Source: Flavobacterium sp. HSC-32F16 (GTDB lineage Bacteria > Bacteroidota > Bacteroidia > Flavobacteriales > Flavobacteriaceae). Taken from it: a stretch of DNA of 64,000 bases. A program made the translations under genes and the position numbers. Positions 12,633 to 23,727 of this stretch are shown piece after piece. The notes below the pieces were generated by a model. That model did not search any database and was not told the DNA's origin. It worked only from the letters and a program-made list of their open reading frames with translations. Positions within the stretch are counted from its first letter, which is position 1. Each line of letters begins with the position of its first letter. The stretch is from positions 62,001 through 126,000 of the forward strand of contig NZ_JALKAC010000005.1 of assembly GCF_024171645.1 (NCBI RefSeq), read 5' to 3'.

Positions 12633-12950
12633 ATGTACTGAGAAAATGCTTAGAGCGTTAGTGTAGTGAAATCTCAACATCTTAATTATTCATAAATATA
12701 TCGCTCCTCTTGAGCTTTAAAACTATATTTTTAAATCTATATTAATTAAAATTTAGTTTTGGTCAATTTTAAAATCAAATTGTACTTAACATATAAGTAA
12801 CTTTATTATTCAAATTACTGCTTTTTATTTTTCTTTTTAACGAAATCAAAAGCCTTATAACGTCTATAGAGTTAATAATTTAGTAATATGTGCGAAATAA
12901 CACAAAAAGCATATTTCTTTATCTTCGTTTTTTAAAAAGCGTTAAAAAAT
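12633..12950. other. AT-rich gene-free stretch
   Basis: About 320 bases without a gene. The only feature I see is TATCTTCG near 12922-12929, a near match to TAnnTTTG that may serve the glycosyltransferase gene. Confidence 0.4.
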
Positions 12951-14033
12951 ATGAGCATTGACTATTCTGCTAACAAAACTATATTAGTTGCTCCGTTAAA
13001 CTGGGGACTAGGGCATGCCACAAGATGTATTCCGATAATTAAAGCGCTTCAAGAAAATAATTATATTCCGATTATTGCTTCTGACGGTATCGCTCTGGCT
13101 TTGCTGCGCAAAGAGTTTCCATACGTACAGACTCTGGAACTGCCTTCTTATCATATTGAATATGCTAAAAATGGCAAGAACTTTAAATGGAAGCTGATCA
13201 AGAATCTTCCTAAAATGATTACGGCCATTTTAGACGAGAAAAAAATGGTAAACAGCTGGATCAAAAAGCACGGTATTGATGGTATAATTTCGGATAACCG
13301 ATTAGGTGTTTTCAGCAAAAAAATACCTTCTGTTTTCATGACGCATCAATTGAATGTTATGACGGGAAACACGACTTGGTTTACAAGTAAATGTCATCAA
13401 TATTTTATAAAAAAATATACACAATGCTGGGTTCCTGATTCTAATGAAAAAGTGAATCTTACCGGCGATTTAGGTCATCTTAAAACTGATCACCTTAATT
13501 TAAAATATATTGGTCCTTTAAGCAGAATGAAGAAAAAGGAAACGCCAATGGTATACGACCTTATGATTATTTTATCTGGTCCTGAACCGCAGCGTACTTA
13601 CTTAGACGAGAAACTGCAAAAAGAAACCGCAAGATTTAATGGAAAAGTTGTTTTTGTACAAGGAATTGTAGAGAAAACGCAAGAAAAATGGCAGGCTGGA
13701 AATGTAACGTATTACAATTTCATGAACTCGAAACAACTGGAACAAACTTTTAACGAAAGTGAATTTGTGCTTTGCCGTTCTGGTTATACAACTGTTATGG
13801 ATTTGGCGAAACTGGGCAAAAAAGCTTTTTTTATTCCTACGCCGGGACAATATGAACAGGAATATCTGGCGATAAAACTTCAGGAAGAAAATCTTGTACC
13901 GTATGCAATGCAAGACGACTTTACGATTGAAGATTTATCAAAGGTAAAGTCGTTTAAAGGTTTGTCTCAATTTAAAAATGATATAGACTGGGACTCGTTA
14001 TTTAATGTTTTTGAAGATAATTCTCAACAATAA
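12951..14033 (+). CDS. MurG-like glycosyltransferase family protein
   Basis: A 360-residue soluble protein with the two-lobe layout of the GT-B fold. The N-terminus has ILVAPLNWGLGHATRCIPII, a glycine-rich loop like that of MurG (GTGGHVxP position), and the C-terminal lobe has FVLCRSGYTTVMDLAKLGKK and PTPGQYEQEYLA, the nucleotide-sugar binding region of GT28-type enzymes. It is not MurG itself, as length and key motifs differ and no cell-wall genes are near. Donor and acceptor are unknown. It is monocistronic between two unrelated units. Confidence 0.75.
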   Translation: MSIDYSANKTILVAPLNWGLGHATRCIPIIKALQENNYIPIIASDGIALALLRKEFPYVQTLELPSYHIEYAKNGKNFKWKLIKNLPKMITAILDEKKMVNSWIKKHGIDGIISDNRLGVFSKKIPSVFMTHQLNVMTGNTTWFTSKCHQYFIKKYTQCWVPDSNEKVNLTGDLGHLKTDHLNLKYIGPLSRMKKKETPMVYDLMIILSGPEPQRTYLDEKLQKETARFNGKVVFVQGIVEKTQEKWQAGNVTYYNFMNSKQLEQTFNESEFVLCRSGYTTVMDLAKLGKKAFFIPTPGQYEQEYLAIKLQEENLVPYAMQDDFTIEDLSKVKSFKGLSQFKNDIDWDSLFNVFEDNSQQ

Positions 14034-14154: not shown

Positions 14155-15450
14155 TTAGAAATTAAACTGAGCTTGTAATCGCAGCACATTTCCTTTTTGT
14201 CTGTTTATTGGAAGCGCACTGTCTTCAAAAGTTCTGTCGGCAAGTACATATGATGCCGTTAATTCAAATGCTTTAATTGGCTGCCACTCGATACCAAATT
14301 CATAGTCTCTTACAACGTAACTTCTGGCATCTTTTTCATATTTCTTTCCTCCGTCGTAATATTGAAATTTGGCGAAAGGATAAATATGCTGTTTTTTGAT
14401 ATCCCATTTATAGTTTAGCAAAACGTAACCTCCATTTAAATCCGTTTCATCTACTGTATTCGTTAAGGTATTATAACGAGGACCTGTTCCTATATTGTAT
14501 TCTGTCTGGATTCCAAAAGGTCTTGGATACAAAACAAATGTCGCACCTACTCTTTGGTCTTTTACATATTGCGGATCATTTACGATTACTCCGTTAGAAA
14601 TTTCTCCTGTAAAAGCCCATTTTCCTGTATAAGCCTGAATTCCGGGTTCGATAATCTGACTTCCAATTACAAATGGATACGTTACTCTGGCAACAACATT
14701 TAAATCTCTGTTTCCGTCCATTTTATTAGCGATCTGTCCATTATAAACTCCAAAAGCAAATACTCCAAAATCTCCAGAACCTTTGTATCCGTCTCTAACC
14801 AGCATATTGAAACGCTCTCTAATTTCGGCTGGAGCCCAATAAAAGAAGATTCCTAAATCACGCTCATTGGCTATTGAACTGTTTATACCATCGGCACGGT
14901 CAAGAGTCAAACGTTGTGAACTTGACTGCATATTTTCGAAACCATAAGGGATTTTACTTTGCCCAACACGAACACGATATTCTTTTTTCTTATCAAAAGA
15001 AAGGTCAAAATACAAGTCACGAATTTGCACAAAATTCTGAATACCAGTACTTGGTGAACTGGCAAAATCAGGCTGAAAATAGAAAAACACATTGGGGTGA
15101 ACCTGTCCTGAAAATACTAAACGCGCACGGCGGATAAAAAGTCCGTTGTTTGCTTGTGCATCTGGAGCTGTTGATGTTGTTCCCCAGGATTTATCACATT
15201 GATCGCAGGAAACTTTATCATTTGTAGAAAGAAGTCCGTTGTATCTAATTTGGGCATAACCTCTTAAAGATATTCTGTCGTACCAGTGTTCTTCAACTCC
15301 TCCTCCAGATTTAGTTTCCGGAAGTTTTGCTTTATTGATGGAATCTAAAATACGAAGTACTTCATTTTTTACTTCCTGTTTGTTTATTTCCTGTGCATTT
15401 GCAGCAAAGGTTATCAATAATAAAACGGCTATTATTTTTCTTTTTATCAT
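14155..15450 (-). CDS. Phosphate-selective porin (OprP/OprO family)
   Basis: A 431-residue porin. The start MIKRKIIAVLLLITFAANAQ is a signal peptide; the in-frame TTG at 15483 used by a longer frame lies inside the -7 box and is rejected. The mature protein begins with a short Gly-rich linker and then DRISLRGYAQIRYNGLL, FIRRARLVFSGQVHPNVFFY and RVRVGQSKIPYGFENMQSS, all typical of the porin O/P family, and ends with the terminal strand VLRLQAQFNF. It probably lets phosphate or similar anions through the outer membrane. Its place beside phoR/phoB and a Pho-box-like array (15498-15548) strongly supports a phosphate role. Confidence 0.88.
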   Translation of the reverse strand: MIKRKIIAVLLLITFAANAQEINKQEVKNEVLRILDSINKAKLPETKSGGGVEEHWYDRISLRGYAQIRYNGLLSTNDKVSCDQCDKSWGTTSTAPDAQANNGLFIRRARLVFSGQVHPNVFFYFQPDFASSPSTGIQNFVQIRDLYFDLSFDKKKEYRVRVGQSKIPYGFENMQSSSQRLTLDRADGINSSIANERDLGIFFYWAPAEIRERFNMLVRDGYKGSGDFGVFAFGVYNGQIANKMDGNRDLNVVARVTYPFVIGSQIIEPGIQAYTGKWAFTGEISNGVIVNDPQYVKDQRVGATFVLYPRPFGIQTEYNIGTGPRYNTLTNTVDETDLNGGYVLLNYKWDIKKQHIYPFAKFQYYDGGKKYEKDARSYVVRDYEFGIEWQPIKAFELTASYVLADRTFEDSALPINRQKGNVLRLQAQFNF

Positions 15451-15480: not shown

Positions 15481-15548
15481 CAAAGATGACTCACCTATGT
15501 TAAGAAATCATTAACCAGATGTTACTATAATAAAAATTTAATGTTACG
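15481..15548 (-). promoter_or_regulatory. Pho-box-like heptamer array and promoter of the porin gene
   Basis: On the minus strand, heptamers spaced every 11 bp read CGTAACA (15542-15548), ATTTTTA (15531-15537), AGTAACA (15520-15526), GTTAATG (15509-15515) and CTTAACA (15498-15504). The -7 box CATCTTTG (15481-15488) ends 17 nt after the last heptamer, the same distance as in two other promoters in this cluster. The TA of TAnnTTTG is missing, as expected for an activated promoter. Confidence 0.7.
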
Positions 15549-15613
15549 ACCTGAAATCGTATGTTGATTTATTGTTAAAATCCTTTGTTTTAAGGTGTTT
15601 GACAAAAACTCGC

Positions 15614-16699
15614 TTACAATTTTTTAACCTCAGCTTTTTGGCTTTTGAATGCTTTTTCGAGTGTAAAAGAGAATTCTGAACCAATTCCGAACTCACTTTC
15701 TACATAAACTTTCTCTTTATGAGCTTCAATAATATGCTTTACAATGGCTAAACCTAAACCAGAACCTCCTTCAGATCGTGTTCCGCTTTTGTCAACTCGG
15801 TAAAAACGTTCAAAAAGTCTCGGAATGTTTTGTTTTTCAACACCTTCTCCATTATCACTTATACGAATTAAGACTTTTTTCTTGGTTAAGTTTACTACAC
15901 CAACTTCGGTTAAACCGCCTTCTTTTCCGTATTTAATTGAGTTTACAATTAGGTTTTCTAAAACCTGCTGGATTCTGTCCTGATCACCGCGAATAATAAC
16001 CGACTGTACATTTTTGCTTTCAAAAGCCAGTTTGATTTTCTTTTTATCGGCTTTCATTTCCAATAAATCAAAAACATTCTGAATTAGTTCAACGATATCA
16101 AAATCAGTCATATTCAAATCTAAATCACCAGATTCCAGTTTGGTAATCATATCTAAATCTTCGACTATATATATAAGACGCTCTACACCTTTTTCGGCAC
16201 GTTTTAAATATTTTTTTCGAATGTGTTTATCGTCCATTGCGCCGTCAAGTAAAGTCGAAACATAACCCTGAACGGTAAATAAAGGTGTTTTTAATTCGTG
16301 TGAAACGTTACCCAGAAATTCCCTGCGGTATTGTTCACGAATTTCGAGCATTTCGATTTCAAGTTTTTTATCGGTGGCAAACTTTTTCACTTCTCGCGAA
16401 AGCGTTTCCATATCGGTTGTAATGGGCTGATTAATTAGTGTTGTGGATTCTAATAACGAAACCTCATCGTAAATTTTCTTTACTCTTCGATATATAAAAC
16501 GTTCTACTCGATATTGTAAAACCAAAAAGGAGAATATATAAATGGATATTAGGAAAATAATTCCAAATGCAATTTGATGTTTTAACTGACTTTTATAAAA
16601 TAACGACATTAGAATCAGTACAAATCCCGTCGAGAAAAGACTGATGTACAATGCCGATTTTATAGCAAATTTGTATGTTTTTTTAAAATTAATTTTCAT
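15614..16699 (-). CDS. phoR: PhoR-like sensor histidine kinase
   Basis: A 361-residue kinase. Two membrane helices (residues about 12-34 and 44-62) are joined by a loop of fewer than ten residues, so there is no real periplasmic sensor, as in PhoR proteins that read phosphate through the Pst transporter. No PAS domain is visible. The phosphoacceptor block FLGNVSHELKTPLFTVQGY has His134, and the ATPase domain shows NLIVNSIKYG, ISDNGEGV and GSGLGLAIVKHIIEAH. It pairs with the response regulator encoded upstream. A 227-base gap filled by a repeat element separates the two genes. Name given by similarity and context. Confidence 0.82.
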   Translation of the reverse strand: MKINFKKTYKFAIKSALYISLFSTGFVLILMSLFYKSQLKHQIAFGIIFLISIYIFSFLVLQYRVERFIYRRVKKIYDEVSLLESTTLINQPITTDMETLSREVKKFATDKKLEIEMLEIREQYRREFLGNVSHELKTPLFTVQGYVSTLLDGAMDDKHIRKKYLKRAEKGVERLIYIVEDLDMITKLESGDLDLNMTDFDIVELIQNVFDLLEMKADKKKIKLAFESKNVQSVIIRGDQDRIQQVLENLIVNSIKYGKEGGLTEVGVVNLTKKKVLIRISDNGEGVEKQNIPRLFERFYRVDKSGTRSEGGSGLGLAIVKHIIEAHKEKVYVESEFGIGSEFSFTLEKAFKSQKAEVKKL

Positions 16700-16742
16700 T
16701 GAAATATTTAAAATATAAAACCATTAAGAGGTATTTTTTTTA

Positions 16743-16906
16743 CCATATAAGTGATATAAGTTCATTTAAAAATAAACTTATTTCTTTGGATTACAAAACA
16801 ATGTAAAAAAGTAAATCTTTGCCAAAGTCCAGAACTTTGACAAAGATAAATTTTAATACAAAAGTATGTACACTATAATTTAAATGAACTTATATAACTT
16901 ATACGG
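16743..16906. repeat. MITE-like element with 28-bp terminal inverted repeats between phoB and phoR
   Basis: The ends 16743-16770 and 16879-16906 are inverted copies agreeing at 26 of 28 positions (CCATATAAG...TTCATTTAAA). Inside is a hairpin at 16813-16850 (AATCTTTGCCAAAG with its complement). A solo copy of the end lies at 61811-61838 after rpoN. The interior holds TATCTTTG (16841-16848) and TACTTTTG (16859-16866) on the minus strand, matching the -7 consensus and pointing at phoR. Confidence 0.65.
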
Positions 16907-16926
16907 TTCAAATTTATATAGAATGT

Positions 16927-17610
16927 TTAAACTTCAAATTTATAACCAACACCTTTTATGGTTTTAAAAAGATCTTCTCCTATTTTTTCACGTAGTTTTC
17001 TGATGTGAACATCGATTGTTCTTCCACCTACTACTACTTCATTACCCCAAACTTTATCAAGGATTTCATCTCTTTTGAAAACTTTTCCTGGTTTTGAAGC
17101 TAATAAATAAAATAATTCGAATTCTTTTCTTGGTAAAGCAATTTCGACATTGCCTTTTATGATTTTGTATTCTTCTCGGTTAATCTCAATTCCGCCAACA
17201 TTTAGAGTATCTGTAACGACTTCTTGTTCTTTTAACCTTCTTAACAAAGCCTTTACTTTAGACACTAATAATTTTGGTTTGATTGGCTTTGTAATATAGT
17301 CGTCAGCACCTGCGTCAAAACCAGCTACTTGCGAATAATCTTCGCTTCTTGCGGTAAGAAATGTTATGATAACATTATTTAACTCAGGAATTTTTCTGAT
17401 GTGCTCACAAGCTTCCATCCCGTCCATTTCTGCCATCATTACGTCCATGATAATTAATTCCGGCAATTCTTTCTGAGCCTTTGCTATAGCATCTTTTCCG
17501 TTAGAAGCTGTAACAATCTGGTAGCCTTCCTGAGCGAGGTTATAGCCAACGATTTCCAAAATATCCGGTTCGTCGTCAACTAATAAAATCTTAGTTTGTG
17601 TTTTTTTCAT
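16927..17610 (-). CDS. phoB: PhoB-like response regulator (OmpR family)
   Basis: A 227-residue two-domain regulator. The receiver has LLVDDEPDI (acidic pocket, Asp12-Asp13), the phosphorylation site Asp56 in ELIIMDVMM, and LTARSED and TKPIKPK for the switch Thr and Lys. The C-terminal winged helix has RKEFELFYLLASKPGKVFKR and TIDVHIRKLREKIGEDLF, ending GVGYKFEV, as in PhoB/PhoP. The start at 17610 is an ATG; an upstream in-frame codon adds only MLF. Heptamer arrays upstream of the porin, the TonB receptor and the lipoprotein are its likely targets. I see no such array before phoB itself. Confidence 0.85.
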   Translation of the reverse strand: MKKTQTKILLVDDEPDILEIVGYNLAQEGYQIVTASNGKDAIAKAQKELPELIIMDVMMAEMDGMEACEHIRKIPELNNVIITFLTARSEDYSQVAGFDAGADDYITKPIKPKLLVSKVKALLRRLKEQEVVTDTLNVGGIEINREEYKIIKGNVEIALPRKEFELFYLLASKPGKVFKRDEILDKVWGNEVVVGGRTIDVHIRKLREKIGEDLFKTIKGVGYKFEV

Positions 17611-17735
17611 AAATAGCAAAAATTGAGATTTTTACATCAAATATTCTTATTCATTTATCCGATGTTTTTTATTTCACAGGGTAAATATACTAACAAATGA
17701 ACGGTTAAAAATTGGTGTTAACCGTAATTTAATCT

Positions 17736-17814
17736 GGTAACAATTTCATAATCTTAACAACACAAAAACATAACAAGTCCGTAACATGGACTTTACAGCG
17801 CGGTTCTTTCTTTG
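17736..17814 (+). promoter_or_regulatory. Pho-box-like heptamer array and promoter of the TonB receptor gene
   Basis: Six heptamers at an exact 11-bp period: GGTAACA (17736), CATAATC (17747), CAACACA (17758), CATAACA (17769), CGTAACA (17780), CTTTACA (17791). Spacers are four bases each. The -7 box TTTCTTTG (17807-17814) ends 17 nt after the last heptamer. The layout is like known PhoB and PhoP boxes (direct repeats every 11 bp); the TTAACA-type core resembles that described for Bacillus PhoP. Confidence 0.75.
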
Positions 17815-17843
17815 CACAAAAATAAATTAAACACAACACACAA

Positions 17844-20624
17844 ATGAAATTCAATTTAAGATTTCTATTTATTGCATTATTTATCTGTACGATTTCGATC
17901 GCGCAAAACAAAGGTACGATTTCTGGAGTTCTGACTGACAAAGAAGCGAACAATGCATCGTTACCTTTTGCTAATGTTTTAATTAAAGGTACAAATATTA
18001 GCGCAAACACTGACATTGACGGAAAATATTCGTTGAATGTAAATCCTGGAAACTATACTGTTATTTTTAGTTTTGTAGGATATGAAACTAAAGAAGCTCC
18101 AGTTACTGTAAAAGCAGGCGAAACTGTAGTTATAAATCAAGTACTTTCTTCCGGAAGTTTTACTTTAAAAGATGTAGTGGTGAAATCTACGGCTGGAAAT
18201 AAACAAAAAGAATCAGCATTGTTACTAGATCAAAAAAATGCAGTTTCATTTAAAGCTGCGATTGGTGCCGAAGAAATTTCCAGAAAAGGAGTTAACGACG
18301 TTGCTAATGCCGTGGCAAAAGTGAGCGGGGTATCTAAACAAGATGATTCTGGAAATGTTTTTGTAAGAGGTCTGGGCGACCGTTACAATGTAACTACTTT
18401 AAATGGCCTTCCTTTACCATCAAATAATCCTGCAAATAAAAATATACTTTTAGATATTTTCACAACAAATATCGTAGACAACATTGGGATTAGCAAAACA
18501 TTTGAAGCACAGAATTATGCCGATTTTGGAGGTGCAAATATTGACATCAGCGCAAAAAAATTCAGCGGCAAACCTTTTATCAGCTTTTCAATTGGTACAG
18601 GAGCAAATACAAATGTGCTTAGTCAAGATCACTTTTACTTACAAGATGGTCCATCATATACTGGATTTAAAAAAGCAGGCGTTCCAGATTCTCCTTTAAA
18701 ACCATATAATTATGCTACAAGCTGGGACAGACAAGAAAACAAAAATGTTTTAAACGCTTTCTATACATTATCTGCCGGAAAAAGATTTAACATAAACGAC
18801 GAAAGTTCAATTGGTACTTTTGTCACAGGATCTTTCAGCGCAAGAAACAGATTCACAGAAGGTTACAACAGAGGATCAATTAACTCAAATGGAAACATAA
18901 ACAGTAATTTATACAGAACAGCTTATAAACATAACACCACAACAACTGTTATGGCTACAGCTGATTATAAAATCAACAACAATCATTCTGTAATGTTAAC
19001 TTCATTATTCCTGAATTCAAGTGATCAGGATTATAGTGAATACCAAGGAACAAATCAAGATTTTGATGGAGGCGGTGATACTGAACTTCAACAAACAAGC
19101 GGATTTATTAAACGTGGAACTTTTGAAAGAACTCAATTAATTGTAAATCAATTAACAGGTAAAAATAAATTTAACGATCAATGGAATTTAAATTGGGCAG
19201 CCGGATACAGTACTTCAAACAGTGCAATTCCAGATCGTATGCAAAATACATTTGTTCATGCTCCTAATGGAACTGATTACACTTTTTTTATCAACTCTAA
19301 CATTAATAATCATAGATTCTTTCAGGATTTAAAAGAAAATGAGCTTTCTGCAAATATTGCTCTATCTTATAATTTCAACAAAAAAAGCGAAGATGACGGT
19401 TATAAAGGAAAAGTAACTTTTGGTTATTCTGGAAAAATGAAAAAACTAGACTACACCATGCAGCAATATTCGTTTTTCCCAGACAGAACGAAAATATCTT
19501 TTCCATTCGAAGACGTTCATCATGTTGACAACTATTTAAACGAAGCCAACTTTGGTTCATCTTCATCTAACAGAATATTTCAATCTTATAATGGAGATTT
19601 AAATATGAATGGTGCATTTGCTACTATTCAATACTCACTTACTGAAAGACTAAGTGTAATTTTAGGAGCAAGATTTGAGCAGTTAACTCAAAATGTATCA
19701 TATATTACAACTACACTTCCTGACGGCGATGACTCTGATTATTCTAAGTTTAACATTTTACCAAGTTTAATTTCAAAATATACGCTGACAGACAAACAAA
19801 ATTTAAAATTCTCTGCCAGTAAAACTTATACACTTCCTCAGTTTAAAGAAAAAGTGCCTATTATCTATGAAGATGTAGCACAAGCTTACAGAGGAAATCC
19901 AGACTTATATCCATCAACAAACTATAATGCTGATTTAGGATGGGAATATTTTCCAAAAGCAGGAGAGTTGGTTTCGGTAACAGCATTTGGTAAAATTATT
20001 CAAAATCCAATTAATGAAATGTTCGAAAATTCTTCTTCAAATGATATTACTTATGCTAATACAGGTGAAAAAGCAACTGTAGCGGGAGTTGAATTAGAAA
20101 TTAGAAAAGACATTTTTGAAATTGAAAATGCTAACAGCCTAAAAACGAAACTTTCGTTTGACGTAAACGGATCTTATCTTTACACCAATCAGGATTTGGA
20201 TGGCGAAAAAGTAAATAATGAAAATGGCTTTGGTGCTCTTTTTACTTTTAAAGAAAGCAAATTAACAGGTGCTTCAAATTTCCTGGCTAATGCCAATCTT
20301 TCTTTGATGAAGCAATTTACAGAGAACAATGATATAACAGCAACAGTATCTTACTCTTATTTTTCAGATAAATTAGCCGTAATTGGAACTTCACAGATAG
20401 GAAACCAAGTTGATAAAGCTGTAAATAAATTAGATTTCATTTTAAACTCAAGTTTAACTAAAAACCTAAAGTTAGGTCTTATTTACAACAACATTCTAAA
20501 CCCAACTTTTAAACGCGTACAAGAGCAAGGAGAAGTACCAGGAAAAGAAGCTGTTGGTGATATTACAGTAACATCATACAAAGCAGGTTCTGATCTTAGA
20601 CTTACTTTAAACTACACATTTTAA
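17844..20624 (+). CDS. TonB-dependent receptor
   Basis: A 926-residue outer-membrane receptor. Signal peptide residues 1-20 (ending SIAQ); carboxypeptidase-regulatory-like domain about 24-110 (GTISGVLTDKEANNASLPFA); plug domain about 120-260 with ANAVAKVSGVSKQDDSGNVF and RGLGDRYNVTTLNGLPLPS; then a C-terminal barrel ending LRLTLNYTF. The RGLxxRYNxTLNGxPLPS plug signature defines a receptor class that is not SusC, and there is no SusD next to it. Partner candidates are the lipoprotein and mini-CTD protein downstream. The Pho-type promoter implies uptake of phosphate or a phosphorylated compound, an inference. Confidence 0.88.
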   Translation: MKFNLRFLFIALFICTISIAQNKGTISGVLTDKEANNASLPFANVLIKGTNISANTDIDGKYSLNVNPGNYTVIFSFVGYETKEAPVTVKAGETVVINQVLSSGSFTLKDVVVKSTAGNKQKESALLLDQKNAVSFKAAIGAEEISRKGVNDVANAVAKVSGVSKQDDSGNVFVRGLGDRYNVTTLNGLPLPSNNPANKNILLDIFTTNIVDNIGISKTFEAQNYADFGGANIDISAKKFSGKPFISFSIGTGANTNVLSQDHFYLQDGPSYTGFKKAGVPDSPLKPYNYATSWDRQENKNVLNAFYTLSAGKRFNINDESSIGTFVTGSFSARNRFTEGYNRGSINSNGNINSNLYRTAYKHNTTTTVMATADYKINNNHSVMLTSLFLNSSDQDYSEYQGTNQDFDGGGDTELQQTSGFIKRGTFERTQLIVNQLTGKNKFNDQWNLNWAAGYSTSNSAIPDRMQNTFVHAPNGTDYTFFINSNINNHRFFQDLKENELSANIALSYNFNKKSEDDGYKGKVTFGYSGKMKKLDYTMQQYSFFPDRTKISFPFEDVHHVDNYLNEANFGSSSSNRIFQSYNGDLNMNGAFATIQYSLTERLSVILGARFEQLTQNVSYITTTLPDGDDSDYSKFNILPSLISKYTLTDKQNLKFSASKTYTLPQFKEKVPIIYEDVAQAYRGNPDLYPSTNYNADLGWEYFPKAGELVSVTAFGKIIQNPINEMFENSSSNDITYANTGEKATVAGVELEIRKDIFEIENANSLKTKLSFDVNGSYLYTNQDLDGEKVNNENGFGALFTFKESKLTGASNFLANANLSLMKQFTENNDITATVSYSYFSDKLAVIGTSQIGNQVDKAVNKLDFILNSSLTKNLKLGLIYNNILNPTFKRVQEQGEVPGKEAVGDITVTSYKAGSDLRLTLNYTF

Positions 20625-20646
20625 GAAAATAAATATAGAATTTACG

Positions 20647-20679
20647 AAAAGGTGATTAGCAGTGCTAATCGCCTTTTTT
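20647..20679 (+). terminator. Terminator after the TonB receptor gene
   Basis: AAAGGTGATTAGCA and TGCTAATCGCCTTT form a long stem followed by T residues, so receptor and lipoprotein are mainly separate transcripts. Confidence 0.8.
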
Positions 20680-20739
20680 GTTTTCATACAAACCGAATGT
20701 AAATTTTATATTAAGCAAAGCTGTTTACAACAGAACATA

Positions 20740-20796
20740 CTTAATATATTATTAATACGGCCTTAACTCAGCAAAAACATATGTTCATTTACTTTG
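20740..20796 (+). promoter_or_regulatory. Pho-box-like heptamer array and promoter of the beta-helix lipoprotein gene
   Basis: Heptamers every 11 bp: CTTAATA (20740), ATTAATA (20751), CTTAACT (20762), AAAAACA (20773). The -7 box TTACTTTG (20789-20796) ends 17 nt after the last. Individual matches are weaker than in the receptor and porin arrays, but phase and distance agree. Confidence 0.55.
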
Positions 20797-20830: not shown

Positions 20831-21967
20831 ATGAAAAAATCATTTTTTGCAATGGCTGCAATATTAGGACTTGCTTTAACAAGCTGTAGTTCTGACGACA
20901 ACAACAAAAGCGATGAGAACAAAAGTACTTTCGTTTTAAAAGTTGACGATTTAAAAGGTAACATCAATGACGGTACTGTAACTTTAGACCCTACTCAAAC
21001 TTACACTTTAACTGGAGGTTTAGTTGTTAAAGGAGGAGCAACTTTAGTTATTCCTGCTGGAACAACTATCAAAGCTTCTGCAACAGCAGATCCAACATCT
21101 TTATTTATTGCTGTAGAAAGAAATGCTAAAATAAACGTAAATGGTACTGCTGCAAAACCTGTTATCATGACATCTGCAAAAGCAGTTCCAACTGAAGGAA
21201 GCTGGGGTGGATTAATTATCGCTGGTAATGCTAAAGTAAACACTGGAGATAACGGTACATCTGAAGTTGGTTCTTTAAGCTACGGTGGTACAAATAACAC
21301 TGACTCTTCTGGAAATATTAACTTCTTAAAAATTTCTTACACTGGTTCTAAATTCTCTACAACTAAAGAATACAATGGTGTATCTTTCTTTGGAGTAGGT
21401 TCTGGAACTATAGTATCTGATATCTACACTTACGAAAGTGGTGATGACGGAATTGAATTTTTTGGAGGAACTGTAAACGCTACTAACTTAGTAATCGTTA
21501 ACTCTTATGATGATTCATTCGATTTTGCTGATGGATGGCAAGGTTCTGCAACTAATGTTTACATCAAAGGTGTATCAAAAGCTGCTATTGAAGGATCAAA
21601 CAACGAAAAAAGCCCAGGTGAAGCTACTCCTGTAACTACTGGAAAATTAGTTAACTTTTCTATCATCAAAGGTGGTGCTGCTTTCTTAGCTGACGAAAAA
21701 ACTATCAACTTTAAAGATGGTGGTGGAAAACAAGCTTACACAAATTTCTATGTTGATAATGATATGCCATCTGCACTTATCAAAATATCATCTACTGATG
21801 CTGCTGCTGCTAAAAACATTGCTGATGGTTTCTTTACAATCGAAAACTACAGCTTTGGCGCTGCAATGACAAACACAACTGGCCCTAAATTATCTGGAAC
21901 TGTTGGTGCAGCAACTGGAGCTGGTGCTGGTGCTGAATTACCATCTTGGGCTAGCTGGACTAAATAA
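20831..21967 (+). CDS. Surface lipoprotein with beta-helix-like repeats
   Basis: A 378-residue lipoprotein. The lipobox LALTSC places the lipidated Cys at residue 19, and the following SSDD fits the Bacteroidota lipoprotein export signal for surface exposure. The body has stacked short strands such as TLVIPAGTTIKASATADP, KINVNGTAAKPVIMTS and GSWGGLIIAGNAKVN, followed by YTYESGDDGIEFFGGTVNAT and SYDDSFDFADGW, the look of a right-handed parallel beta-helix with Asp-rich turns. I know no assigned function. It follows the TonB receptor, has a similar promoter array and is a good candidate for the ligand-binding partner of that receptor. Confidence 0.75.
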   Translation: MKKSFFAMAAILGLALTSCSSDDNNKSDENKSTFVLKVDDLKGNINDGTVTLDPTQTYTLTGGLVVKGGATLVIPAGTTIKASATADPTSLFIAVERNAKINVNGTAAKPVIMTSAKAVPTEGSWGGLIIAGNAKVNTGDNGTSEVGSLSYGGTNNTDSSGNINFLKISYTGSKFSTTKEYNGVSFFGVGSGTIVSDIYTYESGDDGIEFFGGTVNATNLVIVNSYDDSFDFADGWQGSATNVYIKGVSKAAIEGSNNEKSPGEATPVTTGKLVNFSIIKGGAAFLADEKTINFKDGGGKQAYTNFYVDNDMPSALIKISSTDAAAAKNIADGFFTIENYSFGAAMTNTTGPKLSGTVGAATGAGAGAELPSWASWTK

Positions 21968-23586: not shown

Positions 23587-23727
23587 ACATCCCTTCCTTA
23601 TTATATTCTCTTTATTTTTTTATTCGTAAGAATATACTCAATTTAATAACCTACAGTTAATATAGAAAAAATACTACATTTATATTTAAAATATACTTTT
23701 AAAGTAACATTTTAAATATAAAAAATT

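Follow-up and report, generated by a model that had tools for sequence, protein, structure and literature searches.

The window, an A/T-rich stretch of 64 kb (33% GC) that was analysed as a whole, belongs to a genome of 5.93 Mb (G000:C5:62001-126000) and contains a set of genes grouped around a PhoB/PhoR-like pair. The gene order comprises a glycosyltransferase, a porin O/P, the PhoR-like kinase and the PhoB-like regulator, and on the strand opposite to the regulator a TonB receptor, a lipoprotein, a T9SS-tail protein and, farther off, a CARDB protein.

12951-14033: glycosyltransferase, Fjoh_0541-like
14155..15450, minus strand: porin O/P family outer-membrane protein, Fjoh_0542-like (PF07396, 1.3e-33)
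15614..16699, minus strand: PhoR-like histidine kinase (PF00512, PF02518)
16927..17610, minus strand: PhoB-like response regulator, the putative binder of the arrays (PF00072, PF00486)
17844..20624, plus strand: TonB-dependent receptor, Fjoh_0545-like (PF00593, PF07715, PF13715)
20831..21967, plus strand: beta-helix-type lipoprotein, Fjoh_0546/FII-like (no Pfam family; assigned by position and Table 1 of PMC8115612)
23728-25422: CARDB-domain protein, Fjoh_0549-like

In F. johnsoniae the counterpart arrangement (Fjoh_0541-0549) has been named 'PhoBR operon/PUSIV' (PMC8115612). The first-pass annotation had described three genes around a PhoB/PhoR-like pair, one of them of the porin O/P type, and the Pfam assignments of porin, kinase and regulator agree with this. 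The regulator is a full OmpR-family protein with 35% identity to E. coli PhoB over 223 residues. It retains the RTxDVHIRxLR stretch, which we take to be the DNA-contacting helix.

Upstream of the porin, the TonB receptor and the lipoprotein lie arrays of heptamers, each followed by a putative -7 box, and two tentative arrays precede the glycosyltransferase and the CARDB protein.

15498..15548, minus strand: porin array of five half-sites (CGTAACA, ATTTTTA, AGTAACA, GTTAATG, CTTAACA), the best match in the genome to profile model R2 (see below)
15481..15488, minus strand: porin -7 box CATCTTTG, predicted start at about 15476
17717..17734, plus strand: distal TonB half-site pair GTTAACC / TTTAATC, 11 bp apart and offset from the main array by an 8-bp step
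17736..17797, plus strand: main TonB-receptor array of six half-sites in an 11-bp register (half-site scoring and alignment)
17807..17814, plus strand: TonB-receptor -7 box TTTCTTTG, predicted start at about 17819
20740..20779, plus strand: lipoprotein array of four half-sites (CTTAATA, ATTAATA, CTTAACT, AAAAACA; half-site scoring)
20789..20796, plus strand: lipoprotein -7 box TTACTTTG, predicted start at about 20801
12871..12910, plus strand: tentative glycosyltransferase array with two good half-sites (score 9.4; R2 9.9 bits, E 0.11)
12920-12927, plus strand: box TATCTTCG of the tentative glycosyltransferase array
23645..23684, plus strand: tentative CARDB array with two good half-sites (array score 14.4; R2 9.4 bits, E 0.16)

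The predicted starts follow the box numbering of F. psychrophilum, in which start mapping placed TAnnTTTG at -12 to -5 (PMC9723704); the last array base would therefore lie about 22 nt before the predicted start. The 15 heptamers of the three main promoters, five before the porin, six before the TonB receptor and four before the lipoprotein, keep their core C in an 11-bp register, three of them being poor (CAACACA, ATTTTTA, AAAAACA). On the minus strand the porin heptamers occupy 15542-15548, 15531-15537, 15520-15526, 15509-15515 and 15498-15504, with the G of the box at 15481. Those of the TonB receptor start at 17736, 17747, 17758, 17769, 17780 and 17791 (final end 17797, box G 17814), and those of the lipoprotein at 20740, 20751, 20762 and 20773 (final end 20779, box G 20796). 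Both the positions of these 15 heptamers and the distance of 17 nt from the final heptamer to the last G of the CTTTG box, as given in the first-pass annotation, are exact to the base in all three promoters. None of the boxes CATCTTTG, TTTCTTTG and TTACTTTG contains the TA of TAnnTTTG. The distal TonB half-sites (17717-17723 and 17728-17734) are separated from the main array by one 8-bp step; this extra pair at 17717-17734 might serve a separate dimer or the autoregulation of phoB.

For comparison, 80 loci were collected with PhoB and their TonB upstream regions were aligned on the box. Across 39 loci of Flavobacterium and near relatives (L003-L047), about 110 nt upstream of the TonB gene are conserved and nearly gap-free, with a conserved C (or T) of TAAC at -92, -81, -73, -62, -51, -40, -29 and -18 from the final G, in steps of 11 bp except for the one 8-bp step between -81 and -73. 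The distal half-site pair is kept in most of these promoters (core C 95%, second core T 82%), and the inner part is kept in 12 of 13 further loci, L073 being the one that does not align. Since the TonB proteins themselves are just 26-74% identical to the receptor of the window in their best segment, the promoter is better conserved than the gene that it precedes. In nine genomes (L003-L011) with PhoB proteins of 97-100% identity, the adjoining TonB receptor is 34-49% and the FII lipoprotein 36-41% identical, and the TonB promoter is nearly unchanged despite this divergence, pointing to a fast-evolving or swapped surface pair.

Array and box were then scored together with a half-site matrix trained on the TonB promoters of other species. 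The training set consisted of 50 promoters; the window's own promoter and those of L037 and L073 (poorly aligned) were dropped, and no anchor was obtained for L061 and L077. As a set, the porin, TonB-receptor and lipoprotein promoters take the top three ranks within the 64 kb, scoring 32.9, 28.3 and 15.8 in descending order. In 60 dinucleotide shuffles of the window (3.84 Mb in total), 14 places reach at least 12, two at least 15.8, one at least 20 and none 25, and 400 kb of other sequence from the genome contain a single place of at least 12 and none of at least 15.8. When 25 combinations of period (9-13) and distance (16-20) are compared, the runner-up scores 18.0 in the window, against 32.9. 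Chance and plain composition are rejected on these scores for the three promoter sites. The fourth and fifth places, 9.4 for the glycosyltransferase and 8.2 for the CARDB protein, lie by score alone at the level of chance, the shuffle maxima averaging 9.7. For the glycosyltransferase, a period of 11 is favoured among the promoters of 59 orthologues. The CARDB array has no TTTG box in phase, and the single orthologue that was found (L011) carries no 11-bp array. A short exact pattern of two half-sites plus TTTG proved useless as a search tool, with two matches in the genome compared to four for the reversed control pattern.

Among 495 genes of the own genome (the window and 30 stretches), the porin, TonB-receptor and lipoprotein promoters rank first to third for array plus box. 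An array score of at least 9.9 is reached by eight of 325 control genes and also by the CARDB gene (14.4), a PhoX-type gene (11.1), the FII paralogue on C4 (10.6), a phytase-linked TonB gene (10.5) and, just, the glycosyltransferase (9.9). Two genes in the scanned stretches that had not been predicted also reach this value (L226 13080 with 13.0; L222 6717 with 10.5). Two FII paralogues, the PUSI and PUSII sigma-factor operons, PhoA and EndA of the own genome remain below it. The period of 11 stands out across the 80 loci, with a mean of 12.7 for lipoproteins compared to 3.5-4.7 for the remaining periods between 7 and 15 (n=48), 18.6 compared to 0.5-3.0 for porins (n=14) and 4.5 compared to at most 1.4 for glycosyltransferases (n=59).

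As reference level we used the 95% level of 822 other genes in the 80 loci; a simple ORF script supplied the start codons and operons, and the tail of the control is raised by pst genes among the control genes near phoB. Above this level are 14/14 porins, 32/48 lipoproteins, 13/67 T9SS-tail genes, 8/59 glycosyltransferases, 7/79 phoB, 0/80 phoR and 0/1 CARDB genes, as well as 49/52 genes of the TonB class, which is the training set. Twenty of the best 30 'other' genes, chosen by the analyst, were scanned with Pfam, and 15 are of a phosphate type: five PstS-like, three PstC-like, one DUF47, two PHO4, two metallophosphatases and two porin O/P. The remaining five are a chromate transporter, an outer-membrane receptor, an exonuclease-like protein, a TSP3-repeat protein and one protein without assignment. 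Very strong arrays also lie upstream of a chromate-transporter-family gene in two Aquimarina loci (L063 4712-5843 and L068 4688-5819, with Pfam run on L063 only). These results bear on the idea that A/T-rich tracts phased at 11 bp merely bend the DNA or bind a nucleoid protein, with no specific regulator involved. The window has 33% GC and the half-sites are A/T-rich, in line with this idea, yet the conserved letters include the in-phase C of TAAC, with up to 2.3 bits, and the strong arrays are concentrated before one functional class of genes. We regard such an origin as extremely improbable.

The spacing between array and box follows a simple rule. Taking the three best half-sites of an array, the distance between their last core C and the G of the TTTG box is mostly 18, 29, 40 or 51. 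Distances were counted for promoters above the array threshold (32/48 lipoprotein, 14/14 porin and 41/822 other promoters, and 27/59 glycosyltransferase promoters at a lower threshold). In phase are 26/31 distances for lipoproteins, 22 of them at 29; 11/15 for porins, ten of them at 18; 19/31 for other genes, 15 of them at 18; and 8/15 for glycosyltransferases. Taken together, 56/77 distances of the lipoprotein, porin and 'other' promoters obey a place of 17+11k nt before the box, compared to 28/297 for low-scoring controls, as expected for one in 11. The fixed distance of 17 nt thus holds in the three promoters of the window and gives way, as a general rule, to 17+11k; the half-site at -18 is often degenerate in lipoprotein promoters. 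The absence of TA, which had been described as a property of the box, is likewise confined: it applies to all 37 TonB promoters, with TT (33/37) or GT (4/37) at positions -7/-6, whereas TA is present in 10/21 lipoprotein, 1/5 porin and 7/14 other seeds and is the commonest pair (13) in the mixed set (n=38). A TA-less box as a general part of the site is therefore rejected. Upstream of a T9SS sorting-domain protein in seven loci of other Flavobacteriaceae (L072, L052, L066, L070, L053, L048 and L051), strong arrays are followed by a TTTCG-type box, not TTTG.

Two profile models extended the search to whole genomes. Model R1, 85 nt long and built from TonB promoters only, was rejected as a general model since it is specific to the TonB ortholog (71.2 bits there; the next best match in the genome has E 0.03), and the broader model R2 was therefore built from 38 mixed promoters with 58 gap-free positions. 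E-values of both models are rough, and the genome scans score no more than 150 first-look candidates per genome (28 in the scan of 198 genomes), so that absences mean little. The seeds of R2 include promoters of gene classes that were later found, e.g., some PstS, DUF47 and phosphatase promoters of other species, and the scanned genomes may include seed species; the TonB-trained matrix is therefore the cleanest test.

In the own genome, R2 yields 40 matches at E<=10. The porin, TonB-receptor and lipoprotein promoters as a set take ranks 1, 2 and 4 (E 3e-4, 0.009 and 0.013), and rank 3 (E 0.010) lies 20 nt upstream of a DUF47 gene with a PitA-type permease behind it. A GH1 glycosidase comes after rank 5, and a choice-of-anchor-I lipoprotein, perhaps equivalent to Fjoh_3414, after rank 10. 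At ranks 6 to 9 the strand of the match carries no gene immediately downstream. Nineteen of the 36 matches outside the three promoters were inspected, of which six lie inside genes and only two before a phosphate-type gene. At five loci of Pi type, the sole matches are the PhoX-type, phytase-TonB and FII-paralogue promoters, all weak (E 0.03-0.17). The GH1 glycosidase has an in-phase array and box 136-137 nt upstream in two genomes (G000:C4:245677-245733 and G015:C1:237613-237669) and is an unexpected candidate member of the regulon. Array-like repeats are also present 0.1-1.3 kb before a gene named by eye as aspartyl-tRNA synthetase in three genomes (G000:C2:464377-464407, G009:C1:262871 and G012:C2:407681).

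Across 31 genomes, 62 R2 sites at E<=0.02 were obtained among the candidates scored, with about 0.6 expected, and 50 of them precede phosphate-acquisition families: 15 TonB receptors (two of them distant), 10 porins, nine FII lipoproteins, eight DUF47, three PstS, three PHO4, one Na/Pi symporter and one PlcP-like phosphatase. The other 12, not located before a reference phosphate gene, comprise one GH1 site and 11 sites before no reference family, among them DUF3822, MarC, FecR and DUF4056 genes. Leaving out the TonB, porin and lipoprotein classes, 16/28 sites still precede phosphate genes; eight of the 31 genomes have no site at E<=0.02 among the candidates scored. The scan of 198 Bacteroidota genomes yields 65 sites at E<=0.002, where about 0.4 would be expected; they are spread over 42 genomes, and the other 156 have none among the candidates scored. 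Forty-three of these sites belong to other orders or classes, and for 20 of them the flanking genes were examined and named by tblastn with reference proteins (at least 23% identity) and Pfam. Seventeen are directly followed by TonB and FII genes (nine), porin-pst operons (five), a phoX-MauG pair, a phytase-TonB pair or phoB; three precede no reference phosphate gene. The enrichment before phosphate genes that the first-pass annotation had proposed to look for by a matrix scan is thus found, covering pst, PitA/PHO4, DUF47, porin O/P, PlcP-type phosphatase, phoX, phytase, TonB-receptor and phoB genes. It had presented the site as one of this genus, which holds for Flavobacterium and falls short as a limit, the site being present in other orders and classes of the phylum as well.

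From the period, phase, conservation and gene context of the arrays we infer that they are Pho boxes, very probably bound by the PhoB-like regulator, which would activate the genes under phosphate starvation. The window carries at least two direct repeats at an 11-bp period, at a fixed place relative to the promoter box; such arrays precede phosphate-starvation genes in the 80 loci, in the 31 genomes and at most of the sites examined in other orders of the phylum; and the genome encodes an OmpR-family regulator of the PhoB/PhoP type, though it scores below the NCBIfam PhoB equivalog cut-offs (TIGR02154, NF053854). The half-sites are not of the E. coli-type heptamer CTGTCAT, the core of the half-site matrix being TAACA. 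Since many related bacteria show the same pattern in front of genes for phosphate uptake, it very probably serves as the phosphate-starvation on-switch of this large group, and the gene context in all three data sets supports the original proposal that the arrays are the site of the PhoB-like protein. Alternatively, another OmpR-family response regulator with a TTAACA core, like E. coli ArcA, might bind the arrays, and the phosphate context would then reflect a partial overlap. The Riemerella PhoP motif has indeed been likened by its authors to that of E. coli ArcA, with redox-related targets reported (PMC9603813), and the regulator of the window stays below the PhoB cut-offs. Yet phoBR is where the strongest sites are concentrated, and in many lineages the genes behind them are pst, PitA, porin, phoX, phytase and phoB, which makes a different regulator very unlikely.

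With PhoB as the preferred binder, phosphate starvation would lead the PhoR-like kinase to phosphorylate the PhoB-like regulator, which would bind as two to four tandem dimers in head-to-tail orientation, each monomer occupying one 11-bp half-site with the core T(T/A)AACA. The TonB promoter, with six in-phase half-sites and the offset pair, could hold four. The array would take the place of the -33 element of Bacteroidota promoters, presumably located in the region that the array covers. As the array ends 9 nt upstream of the TAnnTTTG-type -7 box, or one 11-bp turn farther up, the monomers and RNA polymerase would lie on one face of the helix, a helical phase that would suit an activator in direct contact with polymerase. 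In this way the regulator may recruit polymerase, equipped with the primary sigma factor, to -7 boxes that are in many cases imperfect. We further consider it likely that one PhoB operator, T(T/A)AACA every 11 bp and 17+11k nt before the last G of TAnnTTTG, serves much of the Bacteroidota and defines a shared regulon that includes the fast-evolving TonB-receptor/FII-lipoprotein pair, porin-pst, phoX, phytase and PitA.

Expression data from F. johnsoniae agree with the Pho-box reading for most of the cluster: upon Pi depletion the receptor (+8.02), the lipoprotein (+9.91), the CARDB protein (+7.59), the glycosyltransferase (+5.42) and PhoB (+3.06) are induced, whereas the porin counterpart Fjoh_0542 is not (-1.3, adjusted P 0.245) (PMC8115612). 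Fjoh_0542 is thus unchanged, yet all 14 porin promoters scored carry a strong array, above the 95% control level. The porin array may be a real PhoB site at which PhoB represses, poises or is overridden, a variant compatible with the Pho-box reading. We hold it to be possible and rather doubtful, given that porin promoters share the geometry of the induced ones (distance 18 in 10/14) and the same array is found on porin-pst operons elsewhere. Conversely, PUSI, PUSII, PhoA, EndA and two FII paralogues of the own genome, which look like counterparts of strongly Pi-induced F. johnsoniae systems, have no clear array. The proposition that every Pi-induced operon carries one is rejected, with none convincing at the PUSI, PUSII, PhoA and EndA loci. 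At the PUSI-like (L225) and PUSII-like (L227) loci, the ECF sigma genes are not preceded by a clear Pho box. At the array-less loci, their own ECF sigma factors may relay the phosphate signal. In other bacteria, members of the Pho regulon can lack boxes and boxes can precede genes without a Pi response (PMC4415409).

To our knowledge, the promoters of Bacteroidota differ from those of E. coli, and few operators of this phylum have been defined down to the single base. The operator described here can be read from sequence alone and predicts phosphate-regulated genes across a phylum that is important in soil, water and gut. It assigns outer-membrane pairs of unknown role to phosphate acquisition, and its helical phase with the -7 box offers a concrete geometry for how an activator could work with the primary sigma factor of Bacteroidota. 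Among the matches listed for open PMC full texts, we recognised none that gives this array or spacing in Bacteroidota, and the architecture and breadth are therefore counted as new. The terms 'Pho box' and 'motif' are absent from the available main text of the F. johnsoniae Pi-response paper (PMC8115612). Purified PhoB of Bacteroides fragilis binds the pst promoter (a 512-bp fragment) in EMSA, the accessible part of that paper giving no site sequence or spacing (PMC3547664). Unspecified Pho boxes near plcP are mentioned for marine bacteria in a paper that includes flavobacteria (PMC4796936).

The claim that the site had no prior description accordingly stands for array and spacing, within those matches, and fails for the core letters, which were already known. 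Riemerella presumably belongs to the same order as the genome analysed here. The PhoP site of Riemerella anatipestifer, determined by DAP-seq and EMSA, has TTTAACA as its most conserved letters and thus shares the core with the Flavobacterium array in the regulator of a relative; the accessible text names no 11-bp array, promoter spacing or phosphate-gene regulon (PMC9603813). Our data suggest that this 'ArcA-like' motif is a Pho box. Architecture and breadth, as far as found in the open literature among the matches listed, are newly described.

Among more distant systems, the PhoP box of Bacillus subtilis consists of TTAACA-type hexamers at 11 bp, in another phylum and at another type of promoter. 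B. subtilis is also named among the bacteria with similar 11-nt repeat features (PMC4415409). The cyanobacterial Pho box of SphR is composed of 8-bp repeats with a 3-bp linker, i.e., an 11-bp period, at least three in tandem, and its core CTTAACCT has almost the same letters as that of Flavobacterium (PMC1906773); it differs in phylum, sigma factor and -7 box, and an A takes the place of the C behind TTAAC. The E. coli Pho box shares direct repeats, the 11-bp period and an upstream location at a set distance from the promoter box, lying 10 bp before the -10 (PMC1906773). It comprises two 11-nt units to which PhoB binds head to tail, and the tandem 11-bp half-sites fit this mode of binding (PMC4415409). 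The Flavobacterium site departs from it in its core (TTAACA, not CTGTCAT), in its box (the -7 box TAnnTTTG, not a sigma-70 -10) and in arrays of up to 6-8 half-sites placed 17 or 28 nt from the last G of the box. In its geometry relative to the promoter box, the Bacteroidota array is close to the E. coli Pho box.
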